This document shows, piece after piece, positions 10,580-37,365 of a DNA stretch of 64,000 bases. Source of the stretch: Tissierellales bacterium (GTDB lineage: Bacteria > Bacillota > Clostridia > Tissierellales > Sedimentibacteraceae); assembly GCA_018433765.1 (NCBI GenBank), contig JAHDQO010000003.1, positions 124,001 to 188,000 on the forward strand. Reading direction: 5' to 3'. The translations under genes were made by a program, and so were the position numbers. Position 1 is the first letter of the stretch. Every line of letters begins with the position of its first letter. Under the pieces are notes generated by a model. It was not told the origin of the DNA. It was given only the letters and a program-made list of their open reading frames with translations, and made no database searches.

Positions 10580-12229
10580 ATGAAAAAAATATTTTCTATG
10601 TTATTATTAGTGTCAATAATACTATCATTAACAGTAGGATGTGCAAATGAAGTTGTACAAGATTCACAAAAACAAGACGAAGAACAACCAGTAAAAGAGA
10701 TAACAATATGCAATTCGTGGAGCTTTGAGGAAGGATTTCCGACTATAGCTACACCAGAAACAAATTCAAACTATGGTATTAGATTTTTAGCTAATAACTT
10801 TTATGAAACATTAGTTAATTATGAAAATGGTGAAATTGTACCTGGTCTTGCTGAAAGATGGAACATATCAGATGATGGTACAATATACACTTTTTATTTA
10901 AAAAAAGGCATTAAGTTTTCTGATGGCGAAGATTTTAATGCTAACGCGGTAAAAACTAATTTAGATAATATACCTATTATTCTTGGCAGTTATAATGGTT
11001 CATATGGTATGACAACATTGTTAATAAAGGAAGTTGTTATAGTAGATGAATATACAGTAGAAGTAAAACTTTCAGATCCATATTATGGAGCTTTGCAAGA
11101 TTTTACAATTCCATTTCCAATGAGTATGGTATCACCTAAAGCATATAATAAAGATGGTACTTACAATGATGTGATTATGACATCAACACCTGGAACAGGA
11201 CCGTATATGTATGACGGAAAATCAGATGGTACTGTATATACCTTTATTAAAAATCCTTATTATAATAGAAAAGATTCACAAGTTGATGTATTTCATGTAA
11301 AAATTATACCAAACAATGAATCAAAATTATTAGCATTGAGAAACAAAGAAGTTGATATGATATTTGGCATTGATAAATTATCTTATGACACATACATGGA
11401 TTTTATAAATAATCCACAATTTAAAACAATGGTGTCTAAAGATGTTATAAGAACTAGATTTATTACATTTAATAGTAATGCAGTACCTTTTGATGATGTA
11501 AATGTGCGATTAGCACTTAATTTTGCAATAGATAGAGAAGTAATATGCAAGCAACTTTTTTATGGATTGGAGTCGCCAGCAAATACTACTTTACATAGTT
11601 CATTACCTTATTGTGATGTCGATATAGAACCATTTAATTATGATGTAGAAAAAGCAAAAAGTTTATTAAATGATTCTGGGTGGATAGATTTAAATGGAGA
11701 TGGTATTCGTGAAAAAGAAGGAGTAAAGCTTGAAGGCGAAATACTATTCATTAATACTAAAGCAGAAGCTGAAGATTTGTTAATGTACATCTCATCAGCA
11801 GCAAAGGAAATAGGCATGGATATAAACATTACAGAACTTGATTTTATGGCATTAATAGATAAAACCATGAAGCAGGATTACACAATGGCATATAATGATT
11901 CGTATGGAGCACCGTATGATCCATATTTGCAAATAAATAATTTTAGAACAGAGCCAATGGTTGATGCATTAGGTATGCAAGCTCTTATACATTTAGAAAA
12001 TGGTAATGACATTATAAATTCATTAATAACAATGACTGATGTTAACAAAATTCAAAATCAATTTGATTTTATAATTAAAGAGATTAGAAATAATGCATCA
12101 TTCTTACCTATATCAAACATGAAGGAACTGGTAGTATATAATAAAGATATAATTTCTGGATATAAATTCTTTGGGCAACCATCAAATTTTGATGCATCGT
12201 CAGTAACTATAGAAAATAATCTTAATTGA
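10580..12229 (+). CDS. Nik/Opp-type ABC transporter solute-binding lipoprotein
   Basis: 549 aa, preceded by GAGGAGGT. The signal peptide ends at the lipobox LTVGC (Cys21), so it is membrane-anchored. The mature part belongs to solute-binding family 5 (NikA/OppA/CntA): PGLAERWNISDDG near the start, then TPGTGPYMYDGK and FAIDREVICKQLFYGLESPA further on. In this context, with Fur-like sites before the operon and metal importers around it, a metallophore- or nickel-binding role is more likely than peptide uptake. The stop codon TGA overlaps the Fur-like box that precedes the matching permease genes. Confidence 0.85.
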   Translation: MKKIFSMLLLVSIILSLTVGCANEVVQDSQKQDEEQPVKEITICNSWSFEEGFPTIATPETNSNYGIRFLANNFYETLVNYENGEIVPGLAERWNISDDGTIYTFYLKKGIKFSDGEDFNANAVKTNLDNIPIILGSYNGSYGMTTLLIKEVVIVDEYTVEVKLSDPYYGALQDFTIPFPMSMVSPKAYNKDGTYNDVIMTSTPGTGPYMYDGKSDGTVYTFIKNPYYNRKDSQVDVFHVKIIPNNESKLLALRNKEVDMIFGIDKLSYDTYMDFINNPQFKTMVSKDVIRTRFITFNSNAVPFDDVNVRLALNFAIDREVICKQLFYGLESPANTTLHSSLPYCDVDIEPFNYDVEKAKSLLNDSGWIDLNGDGIREKEGVKLEGEILFINTKAEAEDLLMYISSAAKEIGMDINITELDFMALIDKTMKQDYTMAYNDSYGAPYDPYLQINNFRTEPMVDALGMQALIHLENGNDIINSLITMTDVNKIQNQFDFIIKEIRNNASFLPISNMKELVVYNKDIISGYKFFGQPSNFDASSVTIENNLN

Positions 12230-27233: not shown

Positions 27234-28133
27234 TTACAGTTTTTTCCACTCAATAATAATGCTAATATTAGTATTATTGAGTTTTGCAGTAATTGTTCCA
27301 TTCATTTGTTCAACTAATATTTTTACTATTGAAAGACCAAGTCCTGTGCTTTGTTTACTTCTCGGTTTGTCTGCTGTATAAAAGCGATCAAATAAATGCT
27401 GTATATCTTTATCAGAAAGATTTGAACCGTCATTTGTAAACTCTGTAGTTATTATCCCATTGTTATTATAGAGACGTATTTTAATAAAATTATTACCATG
27501 TCTTATCACATTTTGAATTAGATTGTTAAATATACGTGATACAGCATTTTCATCAGCTATAATTTGTGGTAAGTTTTCATCTATTTCAATTATTGGTTCA
27601 AGTCCATTTGATGTAAAATCATCATAATAAGAGGCAATATGTTCAGATAATATATTTTGTAAATTGATTGAAGTATAGTTAAATTTATATTCTTTTGCTT
27701 CAAGCCTAGATAAATCATAAAAACCGATTATAAGATTTTTCAATGATTTTGAACGTTTTTCAACTATATCAATATAGTGATTTCTCTCATTTTCAGGCAA
27801 TGATGTATCTTTTATTAACTGAATATAACCTAATATTGATGTAAGTGGTGTTCTTAAATCATGTGACATGTTAGTTATTGCTCGTCTTAATTCTACTTCA
27901 TTGTTTTTGTATTTAATTTCTATCTGCTTTTTTTTATTTATAGTTTTGTTGATTTCTTTACTTAATTTCTCAAGATTATTATTTGGAAATGATATTGTTA
28001 TTTCTTTGTTAGTAGAAATATTGTTTATTTCTTTAAGATTCTCTGTAATGTTTTTAATACCTTTTATATTTAATACGAGAAGGGTGACAGCTATGCTTGC
28101 TATTACACCCAATATAATAATTATCCAAATCAT
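27234..28133 (-). CDS. sensor histidine kinase
   Basis: 299 aa from the ATG at 28133 (GAAAGGG ribosome site; a GTG at 28142 touches that site). There is one N-terminal helix (about 3-25), a coiled linker to about residue 85, and the HisKA box MSHDLRTPLTSILGYI with the phospho-accepting His. The HATPase domain follows, with N box NLIQNVIRHG and G box STGLGLSIVKILVE. With only one helix and no sensor domain it probably senses through the ABC transporter encoded in the same operon. Its partner is the response regulator at 29907. Confidence 0.88.
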   Translation of the reverse strand: MIWIIIILGVIASIAVTLLVLNIKGIKNITENLKEINNISTNKEITISFPNNNLEKLSKEINKTINKKKQIEIKYKNNEVELRRAITNMSHDLRTPLTSILGYIQLIKDTSLPENERNHYIDIVEKRSKSLKNLIIGFYDLSRLEAKEYKFNYTSINLQNILSEHIASYYDDFTSNGLEPIIEIDENLPQIIADENAVSRIFNNLIQNVIRHGNNFIKIRLYNNNGIITTEFTNDGSNLSDKDIQHLFDRFYTADKPRSKQSTGLGLSIVKILVEQMNGTITAKLNNTNISIIIEWKKL

Positions 28134-28152
28134 ATCTGACACCCTTTCAAAT

Positions 28153-28896
28153 TTATGTTATATCTTTTTTTCTTATGTAAATTACTCCAAGTATGCTAAA
28201 TACTACAGCATATGCTAAACCAATACATACTGCTGTCAAAGACTGGGTACTTGAAACAGCAGCATCACTGCTTAAAATTTCTAGTTGTCCACTAATTAAC
28301 ATATTTTTAGCATAGAAGAATTTGTCTGAAACCAAGTATCCTAAAATATTAATAATTTGTTTAACACTAACAAACAATATAACATATATTGATGCGAATA
28401 GAGTGTTATTTTTTATTAAAAAAGCTATATATGTACATAGCGAAATTGTACCTATCCAAAGAGGAACAGCTGATAAAATTCTAAATGTAAAATCTCTTAA
28501 TAATTCTGAAGAAAAATTCTCACCTATACCTGTAATCATCATACTGCTAACTAAAAATATAGTTAATATTATTATAGCGGAGATTACTGCAAGTATAGTC
28601 GACACAATAATCTTTGATAAATACATTTTATTTCTTGATAGACCTGATGCCAAGACATTTTTAATAGTAAGATTTTTGTTTTCTTCACTGGTAACCATAT
28701 CAACTATCATTACAACAATGTAAATAGGTATACTAAGCATCTTTATACTCATTAGCATCATTTTATCCAAACCTATATTTTGATTTGCTACAAGTAAATT
28801 AGATAAAATTGCAAAAAATGAAATACTTGCTGTGAAAGCATAAAAATAAATTCTATTGAAATTTCTATAAAGTTCGGCTTTCATGTAATTAAGCAT
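28153..28896 (-). CDS. ABC-2 type transporter permease
   Basis: 247 aa with about six hydrophobic segments and the ABC-2 N-terminus MLNYMKAELYRNFNRIYFY. The ATG follows AGGAGGTAAT and overlaps the end of the ATPase gene by 8 bp. It forms the membrane part of a bacitracin/lantibiotic-immunity-like exporter. Family assignment rests on topology and neighbours. Confidence 0.8.
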   Translation of the reverse strand: MLNYMKAELYRNFNRIYFYAFTASISFFAILSNLLVANQNIGLDKMMLMSIKMLSIPIYIVVMIVDMVTSEENKNLTIKNVLASGLSRNKMYLSKIIVSTILAVISAIIILTIFLVSSMMITGIGENFSSELLRDFTFRILSAVPLWIGTISLCTYIAFLIKNNTLFASIYVILFVSVKQIINILGYLVSDKFFYAKNMLISGQLEILSSDAAVSSTQSLTAVCIGLAYAVVFSILGVIYIRKKDIT

Positions 28897-29812
28897 TTTG
28901 ATTACCTCCTATTAAATCAACAAAATAATCTTCTAAGTTTGCTCCACACTGATTTATTGTAGATACCATAATATTATTCTTAATTAATGCTTGTGTCACA
29001 ATTTCAGGAGTATCTATAAACGCATATATTTTTATTTGATTATCGTTAAGCACGTGGTAATCATCACACCCAAGTTCTTTTTCAATTACAACAGAAGCTT
29101 TTGCAGTATCATTTACTTTAACTAGCAAATGGTGTCTGCATTTTTCTTCAATTTCTTTTGAAGTAATTTCTTGCAGTAATCTTCCATTATCAATAAATCC
29201 ATAGGTAGTTGCTAATTGTGAAAGTTCACCTAAAATGTGGCTTGAAATAATTATTGTTGTATTTCTTTCACGGTTAAGCTTTTTAAGTATTTCTCTAAAT
29301 TCTACAATTCCTATAGGATCAAGTCCATTAATAGGTTCATCTAAAATTAATAAATCTGGATTTCCCATTATAGCAAGTGCTAATCCTAGTCTTTGTTTCA
29401 TACCAAGAGAATAATTTTTGAATTTCTTATTTCCTATTTCGGAAAGTCCGACATTATTCAAAGCCTTTTCAACACATTCTTTTCCCGGTATTCCTTTTTG
29501 AATTCGATAATACTCAAGATTTTTTCTTGCAGATAAATAAGGGTAAAAATTCGGACTTTCAATAATACATCCAGTTCTTGATCGTACACTATTTAAATCA
29601 CTTTCAGAAGTTTGGCCAAATATTTCTAGCTTACCTTCATTTAATATTGAGAGACCGCTAATTATTCTAAGCAAAGTTGTTTTTCCTGCTCCGTTTTTAC
29701 CTATGAGTCCATATATATCTCCTTTTCTAATATTAATACTAACATTATTAAGAGCAAAATTGTTTTTATACTTTTTAGTTATGTTTTGTGTTCTAATTAC
29801 TATATCTGTCAA
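28889..29812 (-). CDS. ABC transporter ATP-binding protein (BcrA/lantibiotic-immunity type)
   Basis: 307 aa from a TTG at 29812, 9 bp after GAAAGGT; a TTG at 29821 overlaps that site. Walker A GKNGAGKTT, signature YSLGMKQR (the degenerate form typical of BcrA/NatA ATPases), Walker B LLILDEPINGLDP and H-loop ISSHIL are present. The C-terminal ~90 residues are the extra domain of these ATPases. It partners with the overlapping permease. Confidence 0.9.
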   Translation of the reverse strand: MTDIVIRTQNITKKYKNNFALNNVSINIRKGDIYGLIGKNGAGKTTLLRIISGLSILNEGKLEIFGQTSESDLNSVRSRTGCIIESPNFYPYLSARKNLEYYRIQKGIPGKECVEKALNNVGLSEIGNKKFKNYSLGMKQRLGLALAIMGNPDLLILDEPINGLDPIGIVEFREILKKLNRERNTTIIISSHILGELSQLATTYGFIDNGRLLQEITSKEIEEKCRHHLLVKVNDTAKASVVIEKELGCDDYHVLNDNQIKIYAFIDTPEIVTQALIKNNIMVSTINQCGANLEDYFVDLIGGNQNA

Positions 29813-29906
29813 TTTAATCAACCTTTCGTTTATAATTTATGTTTATATATTAAAACACAATCTGAAAGATAAAATAAAAAAAGTATTAAGAAAGTATTAA
29901 GTTTAA

Positions 29907-30599
29907 TTATTCCATTTTAAAACCTATACCCCAAACTGTTTTTATATATTGTGTTTGTGGGTTGATCTTTGCTATTTTGGAACGTATGTTGCTAATATGT
30001 ACGTTTACAGTATTGTCATCTCCAAAAAATTCATCATTCCACACATGTTCAAATAAAACAGCTTTTGTAAAGACTTTTTTAGGATACTGCATTAATAAAG
30101 CTAGTATTTCAAATTCTCTGGCTGTAAGAAAAATTTCCTTATTGCTAACAAATACTTTATATTCATCCTTATATAAAGTAATATCTTTAAATTTTAAAGT
30201 TGACTTATTTTGTATTGATTCAGAAAAAACAAGATATCTCCTAAGCTGTGCTTCAACTCTTGCTAAAACTTCATCAACATCAAATGGTTTTGAAATAAAA
30301 TCATCTGCGCCAAGCTTTAAAACTTCAATTTTTGTTTCCTGACCTGGTTTTGCAGAAATTACTATTATAGGCATGACCTTAATTTTACGTATGTTTGCTA
30401 TAAGCTGCTCACCTGTTATTGCAGGAAGCATTAAATCAAGTAAAACCAGCTGAAAATCATACATTTCAAGACACATCTTTGCTTCTGAACCTGAGAATGC
30501 ACTCTTAACATTATAGTTTTGCTTTTCAAGTATTCTGCATAATAATATATTTATATCTTCATCATCTTCAACTACTAATATATTTATATCTTCATTCAT
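29907..30599 (-). CDS. OmpR-family response regulator
   Basis: 230 aa, preceded by AAGGAGA. It has a receiver domain (acidic VEDDED near residue 10, phospho-accepting Asp in LVLLDLMLP, Lys in ISKPFD) and a C-terminal winged helix ending VKTVWGIGFKME. It is the first gene of the operon regulator-ATPase-permease-kinase. The set probably senses and expels a cell-wall-active peptide. Confidence 0.92.
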   Translation of the reverse strand: MNEDINILVVEDDEDINILLCRILEKQNYNVKSAFSGSEAKMCLEMYDFQLVLLDLMLPAITGEQLIANIRKIKVMPIIVISAKPGQETKIEVLKLGADDFISKPFDVDEVLARVEAQLRRYLVFSESIQNKSTLKFKDITLYKDEYKVFVSNKEIFLTAREFEILALLMQYPKKVFTKAVLFEHVWNDEFFGDDNTVNVHISNIRSKIAKINPQTQYIKTVWGIGFKME

Positions 30600-31375: not shown

Positions 31376-31431
31376 AAAAATCACCTCCATCAATTATTAT
31401 ACTTCTAAAGATAATTAATAACAATTTATTC

Positions 31432-31460
31432 TTGTATATTTTTATTAATTGTATTATAAT
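31432..31460 (+). promoter_or_regulatory. promoter of the MATE-CsoR operon
   Basis: TTGTAT (31432-31437) and TATAAT (31455-31460) are 17 bp apart; transcription should start near 31467, inside the CsoR-like operator. Confidence 0.65.
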
Positions 31461-31464
31461 TTAA

Positions 31465-31484
31465 ATATCCCCTGTAGGGGGATA
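31465..31484. promoter_or_regulatory. CsoR-like operator
   Basis: ATATCCCCTGTAGGGGGATA is a G-tract/C-tract dyad like known CsoR-family sites. It covers the predicted start of transcription of an operon that itself encodes a CsoR-family repressor. Confidence 0.7.
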
Positions 31485-31497
31485 AAAGGAGGACATA

Positions 31498-32868
31498 ATG
31501 TATAAAATAAAAAAGTATATAAGCATAAAGGAAAATATAGATAGAAATTTAATAAAAACTGTTTTTGTTCTGGCATTTCCAGTAATTATAGAAAATATTT
31601 TGCAGGTATTGCTAGGGACTGCTGATTCTTATTTTGTAAGCAAACTGGATTCTACTGCTATTGCAGGTATAGGATTAACAAACTTAATAATGAATATTTA
31701 TATTGCTTTTTTTATAGCGGTTGGTGCTGGTACTACAGCGGTTGTTTCAAGATATTATGGAATGGGTAATATTAAAAAAGCAATTAATGCAATAAAACAA
31801 TCAATAATTTTTTCTGTTATTATTAGTGTTATAATAGGTGCTTTAAGTTTAGTTTTTTCCAAACAAATTTTTAATTTATTAGGAGCAGAAGATGATGTAT
31901 TAGTATATACACTGCCTTATTTTAACGCAGTTGCTGTGCCTTCAGTATTCTTGAGTTTAATACTAATTCTATCAAGCGCATTAAGGGGAATAGGTGATAC
32001 TAAAAGTCCAATGATTGCAGTCGGAATATCAAGTATTTTAAACATTATACTAGATTATATTTTTATTTTTGGAATTTTTGGATTTGATGGACTTGGAATA
32101 TTAGGTGCTGGGATTGCAACTACTTTATCTAGGTTTGTGGCTGTTGTAATTTTATTTAATAAATTTAATAATAAAGACACTATAATCATTAAGCTAAGTG
32201 ATAGCTGGAAGATAGATAAGAAAATGATTAAAACAATTAGCAGGATTGGAGTACCTGCTGGAATGGAAAAATTATTTATGCGTTTAGGTCAGCTTGTATA
32301 TAATTCATTTATAATATCATTAGGAACTTCTTCTTATGTTGCACATAATATAGCTGGTACAATAGACAGTTATACTTATCTTCCTGCTATGGGTTTTGGA
32401 GTTGCAGCTGCTACTTTAGTAGGTCAAAATCTTGGAGCTAATAAACCAGAACAAGCAAAAAAATATGGATTGCTATCTTATGGGTTTTCTACTATACTTA
32501 TGGTAACAATAGGATTATTAATATTTATATTTGCACCAAATCTAGTAGGAATATTTACAGATGATAATGAAATAATATCACTTTCTGCATCTGTTTTGAG
32601 AATAATAGCAATTACACAACCATTTTTATCAATTACAATGGTAATTGCAAGTGCTTTACAAGGTGCTGGAGATACAAAATTTCCTATGTACTTAACTTTA
32701 ATAGGAATATGGATTTTACGAGTTGGACTTGGATATATCTTAGCTAATACTTTTAATTTAGGATTAGTCGGCATATGGTTAGCATTATCGTTTGATATTG
32801 TAATAAGAGGAATTATACTTATGAAAAGATTTTTAAATGGAAAGTGGAAGAATATTAAAATAAATTAG
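31498..32868 (+). CDS. MATE-family efflux transporter
   Basis: 456 aa, normal length, preceded by AAAGGAGG. Twelve helices are expected. MATE motifs visible include SALRGIGDTKSPMIAVG in the first half and SALQGAGDTKFPMYLTL in the second, showing the internal duplication. It exports cationic compounds using an ion gradient. Control by a CsoR-type operator and cotranscription with a CsoR-like repressor suggest induction by a metal or reactive sulfur/aldehyde species. Confidence 0.92.
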   Translation: MYKIKKYISIKENIDRNLIKTVFVLAFPVIIENILQVLLGTADSYFVSKLDSTAIAGIGLTNLIMNIYIAFFIAVGAGTTAVVSRYYGMGNIKKAINAIKQSIIFSVIISVIIGALSLVFSKQIFNLLGAEDDVLVYTLPYFNAVAVPSVFLSLILILSSALRGIGDTKSPMIAVGISSILNIILDYIFIFGIFGFDGLGILGAGIATTLSRFVAVVILFNKFNNKDTIIIKLSDSWKIDKKMIKTISRIGVPAGMEKLFMRLGQLVYNSFIISLGTSSYVAHNIAGTIDSYTYLPAMGFGVAAATLVGQNLGANKPEQAKKYGLLSYGFSTILMVTIGLLIFIFAPNLVGIFTDDNEIISLSASVLRIIAITQPFLSITMVIASALQGAGDTKFPMYLTLIGIWILRVGLGYILANTFNLGLVGIWLALSFDIVIRGIILMKRFLNGKWKNIKIN

Positions 32869-32879
32869 AGGTGAACATA

Positions 32880-33158
32880 ATGACTAATAATGAACATAAT
32901 CATCCTTCAAGAAAGCAAGTTATAAATAGATTTTCAAGAGTGATTGGGCATGCGGAGGCAGTAAAAAAAATGTATATTGAGGGAGCAGATTGCAGTGATG
33001 TGCTAATACAGATTTCTGCTGTAAAATCAGCCCTCAACAATATTGGAAAAATTGTTTTAAAGGATCACATAAATCACTGCCTTGTAGATATAACAGAAGA
33101 AAACAATAAAGAAGCATTATTAAAGTTAAATGAAGCTATAGATAAATATATGAAATAA
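32880..33158 (+). CDS. CsoR-family metal-sensing repressor
   Basis: 92 aa from the ATG at 32880, which follows GAGGTGA; a GTG at 32871 lies inside that site. It is an all-helical DUF156 protein with Cys38, His63 and Cys67, the spacing of the Cu(I)-binding C-H-C triad of CsoR. A His-containing N-terminus (NNEHNHP) could add ligands. It should repress its own operon through the box at 31465. Copper is the default inducer by ligand pattern, though CsoR relatives sense other signals. Confidence 0.88.
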   Translation: MTNNEHNHPSRKQVINRFSRVIGHAEAVKKMYIEGADCSDVLIQISAVKSALNNIGKIVLKDHINHCLVDITEENNKEALLKLNEAIDKYMK

Positions 33159-33178
33159 ATTTAAAAATTTAAATTAAA

Positions 33179-33212
33179 AAAACTGAAAGAATTTTTTCAA
33201 TCAGTTTTTTTT
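33179..33212 (+). terminator. rho-independent terminator
   Basis: AAAACTGA (33179-33186) pairs with TCAGTTTT (33201-33208) and continues into a T-run. It ends the MATE-CsoR operon. Confidence 0.75.
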
Positions 33213-33261
33213 ATTACTTTTAAAGCTTATTTATAGATAATTTTCACAACATCTGTTGTTT

Positions 33262-35313
33262 TTATTTTATCTTAGATGCAGGCATTTCTTGTCCATTTTG
33301 ATGCAATATTAATTTTACTACTTGCCCACTGTCGTCTTTTTCAAAAACAATTTTTGCATCTATTAATTTATAAATGTATTCCGTTTCTGAAATAGGGAAT
33401 ATTTCAAATTTATCTTGACCTGTAAGTTGTGCATAAATTTTGTTATCTTCCTTTGTAATAGTATATATTATATTTTCAGTTAATTCATATTCTCCTACAT
33501 ATGCATCATATATTGAAGAATCTACAGTGATTATAGTATTGTCTTTTGTATTCTCTGTTACTTTATAGACAAATTTCATACCTAATTGTTCTAGAATAAC
33601 CTCAGTAACTTCATCTTTATCATTGGTTACAAATTCAATAGTAACTTCAATTTGTTTTGCAAAAAAATTATTTTTTGTCATAGGAAATATTTCAAAGGCA
33701 TTCTGACCTTCTAATTGTGCATAAAGATTATTATCGTTTTTAATTATGTTTAGATACGTTCCATCTAAATAATACTTTCCTACATAACTGTCATATAAAT
33801 TTGGATCATCTATTTCAATCTCTTTTATAATTTTAGGCATTTCATAATCTTTGTTAAGAATTATAGAAGATAAAGTATTTGATAAAGTCATAACATCATA
33901 TAAACGATTATTAGTTAAAACAATTATAGTAATATCTGCATCTACATATCTAACAATAATGGAAGTGAATCCCATAGTGGCGCCATCATGAAGTATTACA
34001 TTATCATCATCAGTGTTAGCTATTAGCCAACCATAACCATAGTTACATCCTTCTGAAACAGATATATATCCATCAAATATTTGATCTAAGGTTTGCTGTT
34101 TAACAAGTTGCTCTGTTTTTAAAGCACGATCCCATCTGTATAAGTCTTCTACTGTAGAATACAAACTTCCAGCACCAAAAGTTTGAGTTAATGTAAGCTT
34201 GTCATCTATTGGAGTTACTTCCAGATATCCTATATATGGAGTTGCACCGCAAAAATCATTATCTTCACTATAGCTTGTACCTGTGTTTGTCATGTTAAGT
34301 GGATTAAAAATATTGTTTTGTAAATAGTCTGCTAAAGGTATTTCTGCTACTTTCTCAACTATCATACCCAGCAGCACATAGTTTGTGTTACAATATAAAT
34401 ATTTTTCACCGGGTTCAAACTCAAGCGGTATATCTTTAATAAGATTGACACATACCATAGGGTCTTTATTATCTGTATTTAACATCATAAATTCATTTAA
34501 TTCGGTAAAATTTTTAAGTCCAGATGTATGTGTTAATAAATTATGTATAGTTATTAAATCTCCATTAGGAAGATCAGGTATATATTTTGAAACTTTATCA
34601 TTTACATCTAACAAACCTTTTTCGCTAAGCTGCATGATAGCCATTGCTGTGAATTGTTTTGTAATAGAGCCTATAGCAAATTTAGTTTGAGATTTATTCA
34701 TGGTGTTTTGCTTAAGGTCTGAAAATCCATAACCTTGATTAAGAAGTACTTTTCCTTCTTTAGCGACTAATACACTTCCATGAAAATTTTGATTTTGCTT
34801 AAGAGCTTTCATGTAATCATCTAACTTTTCTTGAGTATTGTTATCTACTGACATTGTAAAGAAAGTTTCTGTATTCTTTTGTGGCTCATGTATTTTCAAA
34901 GTCTGCTGATTATTATTCATATCAATAACTAAATCTAAAGCTTTGCTGAAAAATTCTACAGGTACAAATGTTTTGTCTTCTTTAATAATAGGTTTTGAAA
35001 GTATTTCAATATTTTTTTCATTTACCTTTATATTTGGGTCACCAATTTTTAAATCAATAACCTGTGATTCTTTTGTAAGTATAATACTCTGATCGTTTCC
35101 ATCCCAAGTAACTTGATAATCTAATAGTTCAACGAGTTCACGTAATGGACAAAATATATGTCCTTCTTCATTTATCAATGTTTTGTCCTGTAAAGAAATT
35201 GCTTCATCATTTAATACAATACTTGGTAATGGCTGTGGAACACCGATTGCTGTGACAGACATGCCAAGAATTAAACTAATAGCTAAAATTACAGGTAATA
35301 ATTTTTTTAACAT
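33262..35313 (-). CDS. secreted serine hydrolase: copper-amine-oxidase-N domain plus beta-lactamase/PBP4-type domain
   Basis: 683 aa from the ATG at 35313 (AAAGGAGAAGG before it; an in-frame ATG 24 bp upstream has no site). The signal peptide is about residues 1-25. Residues 30-140 form a copper-amine-oxidase-like N-terminal (PF07833) wall-associated module. Residues 165-480 are a class C beta-lactamase/DD-peptidase fold with the nucleophile motif SITKQFT (SxxK), YCNTN as the YxN motif, and HDGATMG as the KTG equivalent. The C-terminal ~180 residues contain two DAYVGEYEL/DSYVGKYYL repeats (DUF3471-like). Probably a cell-wall or ester hydrolase. Confidence 0.85.
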   Translation of the reverse strand: MLKKLLPVILAISLILGMSVTAIGVPQPLPSIVLNDEAISLQDKTLINEEGHIFCPLRELVELLDYQVTWDGNDQSIILTKESQVIDLKIGDPNIKVNEKNIEILSKPIIKEDKTFVPVEFFSKALDLVIDMNNNQQTLKIHEPQKNTETFFTMSVDNNTQEKLDDYMKALKQNQNFHGSVLVAKEGKVLLNQGYGFSDLKQNTMNKSQTKFAIGSITKQFTAMAIMQLSEKGLLDVNDKVSKYIPDLPNGDLITIHNLLTHTSGLKNFTELNEFMMLNTDNKDPMVCVNLIKDIPLEFEPGEKYLYCNTNYVLLGMIVEKVAEIPLADYLQNNIFNPLNMTNTGTSYSEDNDFCGATPYIGYLEVTPIDDKLTLTQTFGAGSLYSTVEDLYRWDRALKTEQLVKQQTLDQIFDGYISVSEGCNYGYGWLIANTDDDNVILHDGATMGFTSIIVRYVDADITIIVLTNNRLYDVMTLSNTLSSIILNKDYEMPKIIKEIEIDDPNLYDSYVGKYYLDGTYLNIIKNDNNLYAQLEGQNAFEIFPMTKNNFFAKQIEVTIEFVTNDKDEVTEVILEQLGMKFVYKVTENTKDNTIITVDSSIYDAYVGEYELTENIIYTITKEDNKIYAQLTGQDKFEIFPISETEYIYKLIDAKIVFEKDDSGQVVKLILHQNGQEMPASKIK

Positions 35314-35389
35314 ATTCCTTCTCCTTTTACTAATCATTTTTATTTACTTATAAAATATCATATATTGGATATTATTACAAGATAATATA

Positions 35390-35408: not shown

Positions 35409-35462
35409 AAATAGAAAATATTATGATATAATCAAATATAAATTTTAAAGTAGGTGATCAAT

Positions 35463-36299
35463 ATGAGAACAGCTAGAAAAGAAAGTGCTAGCGGATATTA
35501 TCATGTAATGGTAAGAGGAATAAACAAAAGTCCTATCTTTATGTCTAAAGAAGAGAAAGAAAAATTAATTCAATATATTAAAGATGCAAAAGAAGAAATT
35601 GATATATATATTTTGGCGTATTGCATAATGAATAATCATATGCATCTTTTAGTAAAAAGTGAAAAAGAAAACTTAGCTCAATTTATGAAAAAAATTGGTA
35701 TAAGATATGCTATGTACTATAATAAGAAGCATAAACGAGTTGGAAGCGTTTTTCAAGATAGATTTAAAAGTCAAAATATAGAAGATGAAAATTACTTATT
35801 AAGTGCTATAAGGTATATACATAACAATCCTATCAAAGCTGAAATTGTGAAAAAAGTTACAGAGTATAAGTATAGTAGTATTAACGAGTATTATAATGGT
35901 GTAAATGTTATAATTGACTCCAGTGGCAGGATATTAATAAAAAATTATTTTAAAAATATAGAGCAATTTATTGATTTTCATGAAAAAGAGGATATGTTAA
36001 TACATTTAGATATAAAAGAAGATATGAAACAAAATCAACTAAACAAAGCTCAAATGATAATAGACAAAATAATTGATAGAGAGGGCATGGGTAATATTAA
36101 ACGTATTAGGAGGATTAATGGAGTTAAAAGAGAGGTAATTAATGAGCTATTATTAAGCACAAACTTAACTGCAAGAGAAATAGCAGAATTAACTTACACG
36201 TCAAGGAGTACTGTATCAAGATTAAAAACAGAAAGAAAAAATCGGATTAGAGAAAAATATAATTTGATTGGCAAGCAATCTAAAATAAACCATGATTGA
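35463..36299 (+). CDS. REP-associated tyrosine transposase (RAYT, Y1_Tnp domain)
   Basis: 278 aa from the ATG at 35463, after TAGGTGA; a GTG nine bases upstream overlaps that site. The N-terminus MRTARKESASGYYHVMVRGI is typical. The HUH metal motif is NNHMHLL, and the conserved Tyr-containing helix is IRYIHNNPIKA. The C-terminal ~90 residues add a DnaA-like helix-turn-helix (ITARE-type LTAREIAELTYTSRSTVSRL). RAYTs cut single-stranded DNA at short palindromic repeats and are single-copy domesticated relatives of IS200 transposases. The flanking GGGACGGTTC motif and the dispersed 147-bp element in this window are candidate substrates. Confidence 0.88.
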   Translation: MRTARKESASGYYHVMVRGINKSPIFMSKEEKEKLIQYIKDAKEEIDIYILAYCIMNNHMHLLVKSEKENLAQFMKKIGIRYAMYYNKKHKRVGSVFQDRFKSQNIEDENYLLSAIRYIHNNPIKAEIVKKVTEYKYSSINEYYNGVNVIIDSSGRILIKNYFKNIEQFIDFHEKEDMLIHLDIKEDMKQNQLNKAQMIIDKIIDREGMGNIKRIRRINGVKREVINELLLSTNLTAREIAELTYTSRSTVSRLKTERKNRIREKYNLIGKQSKINHD

Positions 36300-37028: not shown

Positions 37029-37055
37029 TGAGCTGTTCACTAGAAGAACAGCTCA
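37029..37055 (+). terminator. left duplicate of the L25 terminator hairpin (no T-run)
   Basis: TGAGCTGTTC pairs with GAACAGCTCA around a CTAGAA loop. It is identical to 37203-37229 but is followed by the 147-bp element and not by Ts, so it has lost terminator function. Confidence 0.75.
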
Positions 37056-37202
37056 GGCTATTGACAAACCCGAATTTCATCGTTGTTGCCTCAATCGAGA
37101 ATGCTCACGTATTTTTATATACGCTCCGCTTACTCGCTTTCGGCACGCCTCGAACTTCAAGTTTCTCAAAAGCCTGTCATCATGTTGACTTTGTCAACAA
37201 TC
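37056..37202 (+). mobile_element. 147-bp terminator-inserted element, copy A
   Basis: It has imperfect inverted ends GGCTATTGACAAA and (reverse complement of the right end) GATTGTTGACAAA, 10 of 13 identical. It is clearly richer in G+C than its surroundings. It matches copies B (45715-45861) and C (60192-60338) at about 97% with identical length. A ~50-codon frame through it is not conserved as protein (three of five A/C differences change the amino acid). Internal short palindromes, including one around ACGTATTTTTATATACG, suggest a structured RNA or DNA. Confidence 0.8.
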
Positions 37203-37235
37203 TGAGCTGTTCACTAGAAGAACAGCTCATTTTTT
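37203..37235 (+). terminator. right duplicate of the L25 terminator with T-run
   Basis: The same 27-bp hairpin as 37029-37055, followed by TTTTTT. Termination after L25 is thus restored beyond the inserted element. Confidence 0.8.
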
Positions 37236-37313
37236 ATGTAATAGTTTATAAGTCATACTTATGAGCGTACAACTGTCTTAACATTAAATTTAGCTATGTA
37301 TTAAAAATTTTTA

Positions 37314-37342
37314 TTGACATATATAGATTATCTATATATAAT
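37314..37342 (+). promoter_or_regulatory. consensus promoter of the PadR operon
   Basis: TTGACA (37314-37319), 17 bp, TATAAT (37337-37342): a perfect sigma-A promoter lying inside the large palindrome. Confidence 0.8.
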
Positions 37343-37365
37343 TATATATAGATAATCTATATATG
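37318..37365. promoter_or_regulatory. 48-bp perfect palindrome, PadR operator
   Basis: The dyad is perfect over 48 bp, centred between 37341 and 37342. It consists of two copies of AGATTATCT/AGATAATCT-type half-regions within runs of TATA. It covers the -10 and spacer and ends 15 bp before the PadR ATG. This matches the ATAT-rich inverted operators of PadR repressors and predicts strong autorepression. Confidence 0.75.

Follow-up and report, generated by a model that had tools for sequence, protein, structure and literature searches.

A MATE exporter gene paired with a candidate nickel/cobalt-responsive NreA/InrS-like repressor and operator in a Tissierellales genome

The window analyzed here, a 64,000 nt stretch of a Tissierellales bacterium genome (contig JAHDQO010000003.1, positions 124,001 to 188,000; positions below are those of the window), contains a two-gene operon that encodes a MATE-family exporter and, downstream of it, a DUF156 (CsoR/RcnR-family) repressor, with an inverted repeat ahead of both (Table 1). 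The MATE open reading frame matches TIGR00797 (303.9 bits against a cut-off of 147.4) and PF01554 (E 2.4e-70), and none of the named MATE equivalogs (NorM, MepA, FepA, EmmdR, others) comes out over its cut-off, the best being PRK10189 with 239.3 bits of the 465 needed. The MATE stop codon occupies 32866-32868 and the repressor ATG (32880) follows 11 nt further on; this start is more likely than GTG 32871, and AGAGGTGA is seen by eye to precede it. The repressor matches PF02583 (E 2.7e-24; 85.8 bits against a gathering score of 22.8), with its conserved Cys at C38, and the family searches returned no equivalog model over cut-off. The original prediction of a MATE gene beside a CsoR-family repressor with Cys, His and Cys at the right places is borne out by these family matches and by the presence of C38, H63 and C67.

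The predicted operator dyad at 31466-31484 reads TATCCCCTGTAGGGGGATA, i.e. TATCCCC-TGTAG-GGGGATA, a 19 bp element lying 13 nt ahead of the MATE ATG (31498); a G/C-tract dyad of the CsoR-family operator type had been placed at the start of the operon at 31465-31484, and we confirm it with this small adjustment. With up to one mismatch allowed, TATCCCN7GGGATA has this single site (seen on both its strands) in the genome (38 contigs, 4,186,474 bases), and the reversed-pattern control has 0 matches in the same 4,186,474 bases. Because there is a single operator site in the genome, the operon appears to be a dedicated target. A dyad of this kind also occurs 5' of the operon in close relatives, in both gene orders.

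Table 1. Features of the MATE-repressor operon in window coordinates
Feature	Position	Strand	Remarks
Candidate promoter, TTGTAT + 17-nt spacer + TATAAT	31432..31460	+	by eye
Operator dyad TATCCC-N7-GGGATA (NreA notation TATCC-N9-GGATA)	31466..31484	none	predicted from sequence
AGGAGG, ribosome-binding site of MATE gene	31487..31492	+	by eye
MATE exporter gene	31498..32868	+	456 aa; branch mostly linked to DUF156 regulators
DUF156 (CsoR/RcnR-family) repressor gene	32880..33158	+	92 aa; His6/His8, Asp37, Cys38, His63, His66, Cys67
Possible intrinsic terminator, A/T-rich stem + U run	33176..33211	+	RNA fold of 33160-33225

A looser pattern, AWCCCN7GGGWT, was built from the window and 13 loci and then run on other loci of the regulator clade, defined as the 92 regulator rows with a local hidden Markov model (HMM) score >92. 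In this set L013-L020 are superseded by longer copies (L133-L140), and the own-genome rows L001-L003 and L102-L104 are excluded, the window representing its own locus. Clade rows are loci rather than independent events, and their neighbours were labelled with local HMMs derived from a few of these loci, curated models having been applied to part of them. Among held-out loci the pattern is found at 0 mismatches in 10/10 with a MATE neighbour, in 1/1 with EamA, in 5/5 with an NF006749-type protein and in 7/10 with a P1B ATPase (10/10 at <=1 mismatch). Clade members without an efflux neighbour (48 unseen when the pattern was made, 4 scanned earlier) have it in 3/52 at 0 mismatches and 8/52 at <=1, and operator-free background windows in 0/752 and 28/752, respectively. 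Over all 92 rows the comparison at <=1 mismatch is 40/40 efflux-linked against 8/52 (Fisher p 2.3e-18, a value that overstates independence because the rows share ancestry); L124 is counted there at 1 mismatch but has a poor dyad. On its own the pattern is not specific genome-wide: in 9 genomes it has 2 to 31 sites, and its reversed form 1 to 17.

The available portion of PMC12724321 describes NreA of Mesorhizobium as a Ni-responsive repressor of nreAXY, with the operator consensus TATCCYCtccrgGRGGATA (TATCCYCTCCRGGRGGATA), in which the distal repeats are crucial. The window operator agrees with this consensus at 10/10 fixed positions and at 17/19 overall, and all ten fixed positions are present in 21 of the 36 zero-mismatch efflux-linked operators. 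This resemblance is the strongest clue to the putative effector. The window operator carries TCC-N9-GGA, not the TAC-N9-GTA dyad given for various CsoR sites (Mycobacterium tuberculosis differing) in the accessible part of PMC3902906.

A MATE gene adjoins 20 of the 92 clade regulators, and each of these loci has the operator at 0-1 mismatch; we kept within the 20 the L135 locus, where the MATE gene lies 547 nt downstream of the regulator and comes from another MATE branch. Scanning of named genome contigs gave 9 loci, with MATE next to the regulator in 5 and EamA in 2, and the 9 close matches (window included) in 61 genomes (relatives and own) adjoin MATE in 5 cases, EamA in 1, an NF006749-type gene in 1 and none of these in 2. 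Of the clade loci fetched from a phylum sample of 398 genomes, the window, L044, L051, L058 and L059 are MATE-linked; in a class sample of 291 genomes (27 match rows, 24 examined) MATE is found at the window only. In the order of Cytobacillus firmus, 12 of 249 genomes have a match at 1e-24, and 8 of the 11 non-centre matches were fetched, 6 of them with MATE (L125-L130), as is also true of the centre, L009. These counts across contig, relative, phylum, class and order samples indicate a pair that is scattered and infrequent. A relative of the repressor is present on two Staphylococcus aureus plasmids. On the one read, pJ01-01 (L175, NZ_CP040620.1 4504-10770), it lies ahead of a MATE gene, the pair being flanked by IS257 copies and close to mupA, and the dyad there has one mismatch and agrees poorly with the NreA consensus; because the pair sits between IS257 copies on a conjugative plasmid, it can travel. 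The original prediction had hinged in part on whether the pairing is conserved outside this strain: it is, with both pair and operator present in further Bacillota genomes and the pair, with a partial dyad, on the S. aureus plasmid as well. Our literature search, which was without most subscription journals, found no work joining a MATE protein with a CsoR-family/DUF156 regulator, and no title on a MATE-DUF156 pair was among the matches listed.

Linked MATE proteins are related to one another. In 8/8 genomes picked for a linked pair, the MATE closest to that of the window is the linked one (one of the 8 is the own genome, where the match is the query itself, and G023, whose linked MATE belongs to a different branch, is not among them). 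In a tree with 22 paralogues, taken from the 49 further MATE matches in the same genomes, 19/20 linked MATEs form one clade with support 1.00 apart from the paralogues, the exception being L135. The comparisons show that repressor and MATE have been inherited together in most cases. H283 occurs in 19/20 linked MATEs and 6/22 paralogues, and a search of the linked MATEs for signature metal ligands gave nothing diagnostic. On the regulator tree the type of neighbour (MATE, EamA, NF006749-type, P1B) varies while operator and ligands stay constant, which argues for a cassette with an exchangeable exporter.

The residues of the repressor bear on its effector class. Besides C38, H63 and C67 it has H66 and the N-terminal H6/H8, and it lacks a second-shell Tyr; H63, both Cys and an N-terminal His are kept in 20/20 MATE-linked regulators. 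Position 37 is Asp here and D or E in 20/20 MATE-linked regulators; the CopA-linked regulator of this genome has Tyr there, as do three CsoR references. This further DUF156 protein of the genome, the one with Tyr, is encoded beside an 869-residue open frame with a P-type ATPase domain, CopA-like by eye (GMTCSAC and CPC motifs). The Cys-His-Cys set had been labelled a copper triad, a label that is not supported: the same triad binds Ni(II) in InrS (PMC4235346, available portion), NreA cannot respond to Ni without it, position 37 is Asp instead of Tyr, and the same genome has a Tyr-bearing DUF156 protein beside a CopA-like ATPase. The available text of PMC4235346 also states that W-X-Y-Z ligands do not predict the metal, whereas a second-shell Tyr appears to predict Cu(I); following that source we dropped the triad as a metal predictor altogether. 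DUF156 proteins resemble one another in fold, so structure would not tell the metals apart either. The second-shell residues of Cu(I)-CsoR are missing from the window repressor, which has Asp37 and, in an alignment counted by hand, Lys82 at the position of M. tuberculosis Glu81 and InrS Glu98. Two other subfamilies were tried and rejected: RcnR, a Cys-His-His protein in which His64 stands where Cys67 is found here (NF011613, 45.5 bits of 138), and FrmR, which has Pro2 where this protein has Thr2 (NF008464, 38.2 bits of 133). In the regulator tree InrS joins the window clade with support 0.96 and the copper CsoRs fall outside; one row with unknown residues was left out, of the tree with NreA only.

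Gene context in sister lineages adds to this picture. P1B heavy-metal ATPases stand behind the same operator in sister loci; of the six tested, five are over the cut-off of the cadmium-type model TIGR01512 and the other is truncated at a contig end. Genes of the CbiM/CbiQ or NikA/NikBC type are found in the fetched stretch of 13/52 regulators without an efflux neighbour and 2/40 that are efflux-linked (Fisher p 0.011), and adding FecCD, FmdE-like and NuoB/NuoL-type genes (complex I or group 4 hydrogenase) brings this to 22/52 against 3/40. Curated cut-offs are exceeded in L107 by NikA and the nickel/cobalt permease Opp1B, and in L085 by CbiM; the FmdE-like protein has no NCBIfam match, and that of L116 is NuoB by model. 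In L115 and L117 an operator with one mismatch lies between the regulator gene and a divergent CbiM-type gene. Within the window genome no match to the NicO/RcnA family was found and NikA has 25 matches, 2 of them over the cut-off and one of these barely, so the host may import nickel without the classic exporter NicO/RcnA.

Some further loci and genes of these types were recorded along the way. Regulators of L046, L060, L061, L064, L085, L105, L107-L111, L113-L117 and L120 lie beside CbiMQ, NikAB, FecCD/FmdE-like or NuoB/L-type genes, most of these loci being without a TATCC operator. In the window itself, 10793-12151 encodes a NikA-type substrate-binding protein (352 bits against a cut-off of 393), and a NikA-type protein over that cut-off (421 bits) is encoded ~10 kb ahead of the window start.

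The MATE-repressor pair, the dyad with its conservation and the ligand residues are evident from sequence and comparison, and we infer that the repressor binds the dyad, that it responds to a metal and that the MATE protein moves that metal. The reading we favour, with somewhat better than even confidence, is a repressor of the NreA/InrS kind that responds to Ni(II)/Co(II) and has a metal-efflux MATE as its dedicated target. The original prediction had left a choice between a MATE that exports a metal complex and a repressor that senses something else; metal sensing is the part we favour, and nickel or cobalt come ahead of copper. The two genes would then form a self-regulated efflux module, in which the apo DUF156 tetramer, sitting on the start-site dyad, keeps the MATE-repressor operon from being transcribed. 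Ni(II) or Co(II) would be taken at a C38'-H63-C67 intersubunit site, perhaps with an N-terminal His in addition, and the metal-bound repressor would leave the dyad, allowing MATE to be made; MATE would in turn lower the intracellular metal, either as free ion or as a small-molecule chelate.

Several observations count against nickel or cobalt. Because the W-X-Y-Z ligands are not metal-predictive, the case for nickel rests on operator type, tree and context. As to the operator, only 23/36 zero-mismatch efflux-linked sites reach 16/19 positions of the NreA consensus. The window repressor is 35% identical to an annotated NreA (that of strain NT-25, not the Mesorhizobium protein) and 33% to its own CopA-linked paralogue, and sequence identity thus does not decide; Lys91 of NreA is replaced by Met91, flanked by Lys89 and Lys92; nodes around NreA are supported at 0.50 and 0.74; and by tree distance the copper CsoR 4m1p (2.10) is nearer to the window repressor than NreA (2.58). 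As to context, CbiM of L105, L115 and L117 and the NikA/NikB-type proteins of L110 and L064 are below curated cut-offs, some NikA-type matches may be peptide-binding proteins, 2/40 efflux-linked loci hold a NikA-type gene as well, and the five full-length P1B ATPases pass the copper-type model TIGR01511 too, with the higher score going to TIGR01512. The exporter itself has 0 Cys and one His (H283), and so, if it moves nickel, may use a chelate or carboxylates. Finally, the plasmid MATEs L171 (Listeria), L172 (Planococcus) and L173 (Cytobacillus) fall inside the linked clade (support 1.00), and no DUF156 gene or operator is found in the stretch read around them (~3-3.5 kb each side). L171 (NZ_CP053633.1) has a heavy-metal P-type ATPase on one side and a CopY-cupredoxin-copper ATPase operon on the other, and L173 adjoins a multicopper oxidase; these neighbours support a metal link of the MATE clade, not nickel as such.

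A Cu, Zn, Cd or non-metal effector is possible, and we weighed each. That the repressor answers to another divalent metal (Zn, Cd or several) is unlikely, though it draws on the sister-locus P1B ATPases, 5/6 of which pass TIGR01512, with higher scores there than on the copper-type model, on the impairment of InrS-DNA binding by Zn in vitro (available part of PMC4235346) and on a report, in the accessible text of PMC11676175, of the plant MATE AtDTX1 as a cadmium extruder; the NreA-type operator and the CbiMQ/NikAB context point instead to Ni/Co. We regard it as quite unlikely that the repressor senses an organic or reactive compound (an aldehyde, a persulfide, a drug) which MATE exports. MATE and EamA proteins usually export organic molecules, and FrmR and CstR, which belong to this family too, respond to non-metals (PMC5016687, available portion), but the retention of H63, both Cys and the N-terminal His in the MATE-linked regulators, Thr2 in place of the Pro2 of FrmR, and sister lineages that serve metal ATPases and Ni/Co-type uptake genes all speak against it.

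Control of the MATE gene by a copper-responsive CsoR is very unlikely in our estimate, even with the DUF156 family and Cys-His-Cys triad to recommend it, Cu(I) also impairing InrS-DNA binding in vitro (PMC4235346, in the text available), same-clade MATEs adjoining copper-type genes on two plasmids, and sister-locus P1B ATPases passing the copper-type model. Against this stand the lack of Tyr at 37, Lys82 where M. tuberculosis CsoR has Glu81, the separate Tyr-bearing DUF156 protein beside a CopA-like ATPase, an operator of TCC-N9-GGA rather than TAC-N9-GTA type, and the position of the copper CsoRs outside the node that joins InrS and the window; we dropped the copper assignment because curated models, residues and operator are against it. 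That the dyad is a transcription terminator or a chance G/C tract is negligibly probable: a scan does list it as terminator-like on the minus strand, but no listed minus-strand gene ends there (the divergent GNAT gene upstream starts at 31393 and runs away from the dyad), this dyad is found ahead of the operon whichever of the two genes comes first, and in other genomes too, and it is unique in this one.

The remaining signals at the operon are weaker. By eye, TTGTAT at 31432-31437 and a perfect TATAAT at 31455-31460 make up the candidate promoter, and from the position of the latter the dyad would start at ~+1; the pair is absent from the output of a consensus promoter scan that needed 4/6 per hexamer, and promoter-like sites are not enriched in the region (15 against a shuffle mean of 15.0). 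Downstream of the repressor gene, 33160-33225 folds at -12.2 kcal/mol (z -2.97; 2/200 shuffles equally good), and the possible terminator within it was not detected by a G+C-based terminator scan. Farther out, 33262-35337 (-) encodes a serine hydrolase of the beta-lactamase family, with DUF3471 stretches and, at its N-terminus, a copper amine oxidase N1 domain; 27234-30599 (-) holds a VanR/VanS-like two-component pair and, between its members, a lantibiotic-protection-type ABC ATPase and a membrane protein, with scores under curated cut-offs; 35454-36299 (+) encodes a REP-associated tyrosine transposase (over curated cut-off); and 37029-37365 contains two identical 27-nt dyad copies, 174 nt apart, as well as a perfect inverted repeat whose arms are 24 nt long.

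Bacterial MATE proteins are mainly regarded as drug and xenobiotic exporters. Tentatively, and with rather less than even confidence, we propose that a distinct bacterial MATE branch, mostly tied to an NreA/InrS-type repressor and a TATCC-N9-GGATA-like operator, may genuinely export nickel/cobalt (or a Ni chelate) and be one among the several exporters (P1B ATPase, EamA, NF006749-type, MATE) that have been swapped in evolution behind one regulator-operator cassette. If true, control of a conserved MATE branch by a nickel-type sensor would give the family a metal role and provide a testable substrate for genes labelled just as MATE family efflux transporter. Exporter swapping behind one operator would likewise make the substrates of poorly known membrane proteins, NF006749-type and EamA members among them, inferable from their regulator.

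Among known systems, NreA and its targets offer the nearest comparison. According to the available portion of PMC12724321, NreA depends on C38, H63 and C67 to respond to Ni, and on the DNA-surface residues R17, R20, Q44 and K91 to repress; C38, H63, C67, R17, R20 and Q44 are all present in the window repressor at the same numbers, as is H66. As far as the accessible text on nreXY goes, that system also has a TATCC-N9-GGATA operator and has regulator and exporters sharing one operon, but its exporters NreX and NreY are Ni efflux transporters for which that text names no family, and the NreA operator lies between -35 and -10 where the window dyad is at ~+1 (by eye). On a plasmid of strain NT-25 (Rhizobiaceae) the annotated NreA precedes an annotated Ni/Co exporter RcnA, with the operator TATCCTCTCCAGGGGGATA agreeing with the consensus at 19/19, and on a Methylobacterium plasmid a repressor precedes an MFS transporter, with a site at one mismatch. 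NrsD, the target of InrS, is likewise of the MFS type. InrS of Synechocystis, in the parts of its description available, resembles the window repressor in having Cys-His-Cys and an N-terminal His, in lacking a second-shell Tyr and in repressing an exporter gene, whereas its Glu98 and Glu95 align (hand count) with Lys82 and Ala79 here. CsoR-CopA systems share with the window the family, the triad and the G/C-tract operator type, and differ in that the window has no equivalents of Tyr35/Glu81 and no TAC-N9-GTA. The best solved relative of the window repressor is PDB 6ahx ("putative cytosolic protein", E 7e-22); a literature search on the code 6AHX returned only unrelated matches, and the protein is identical over 78/78 aligned residues to the regulator of L130, a MATE-linked member of the clade with operator.

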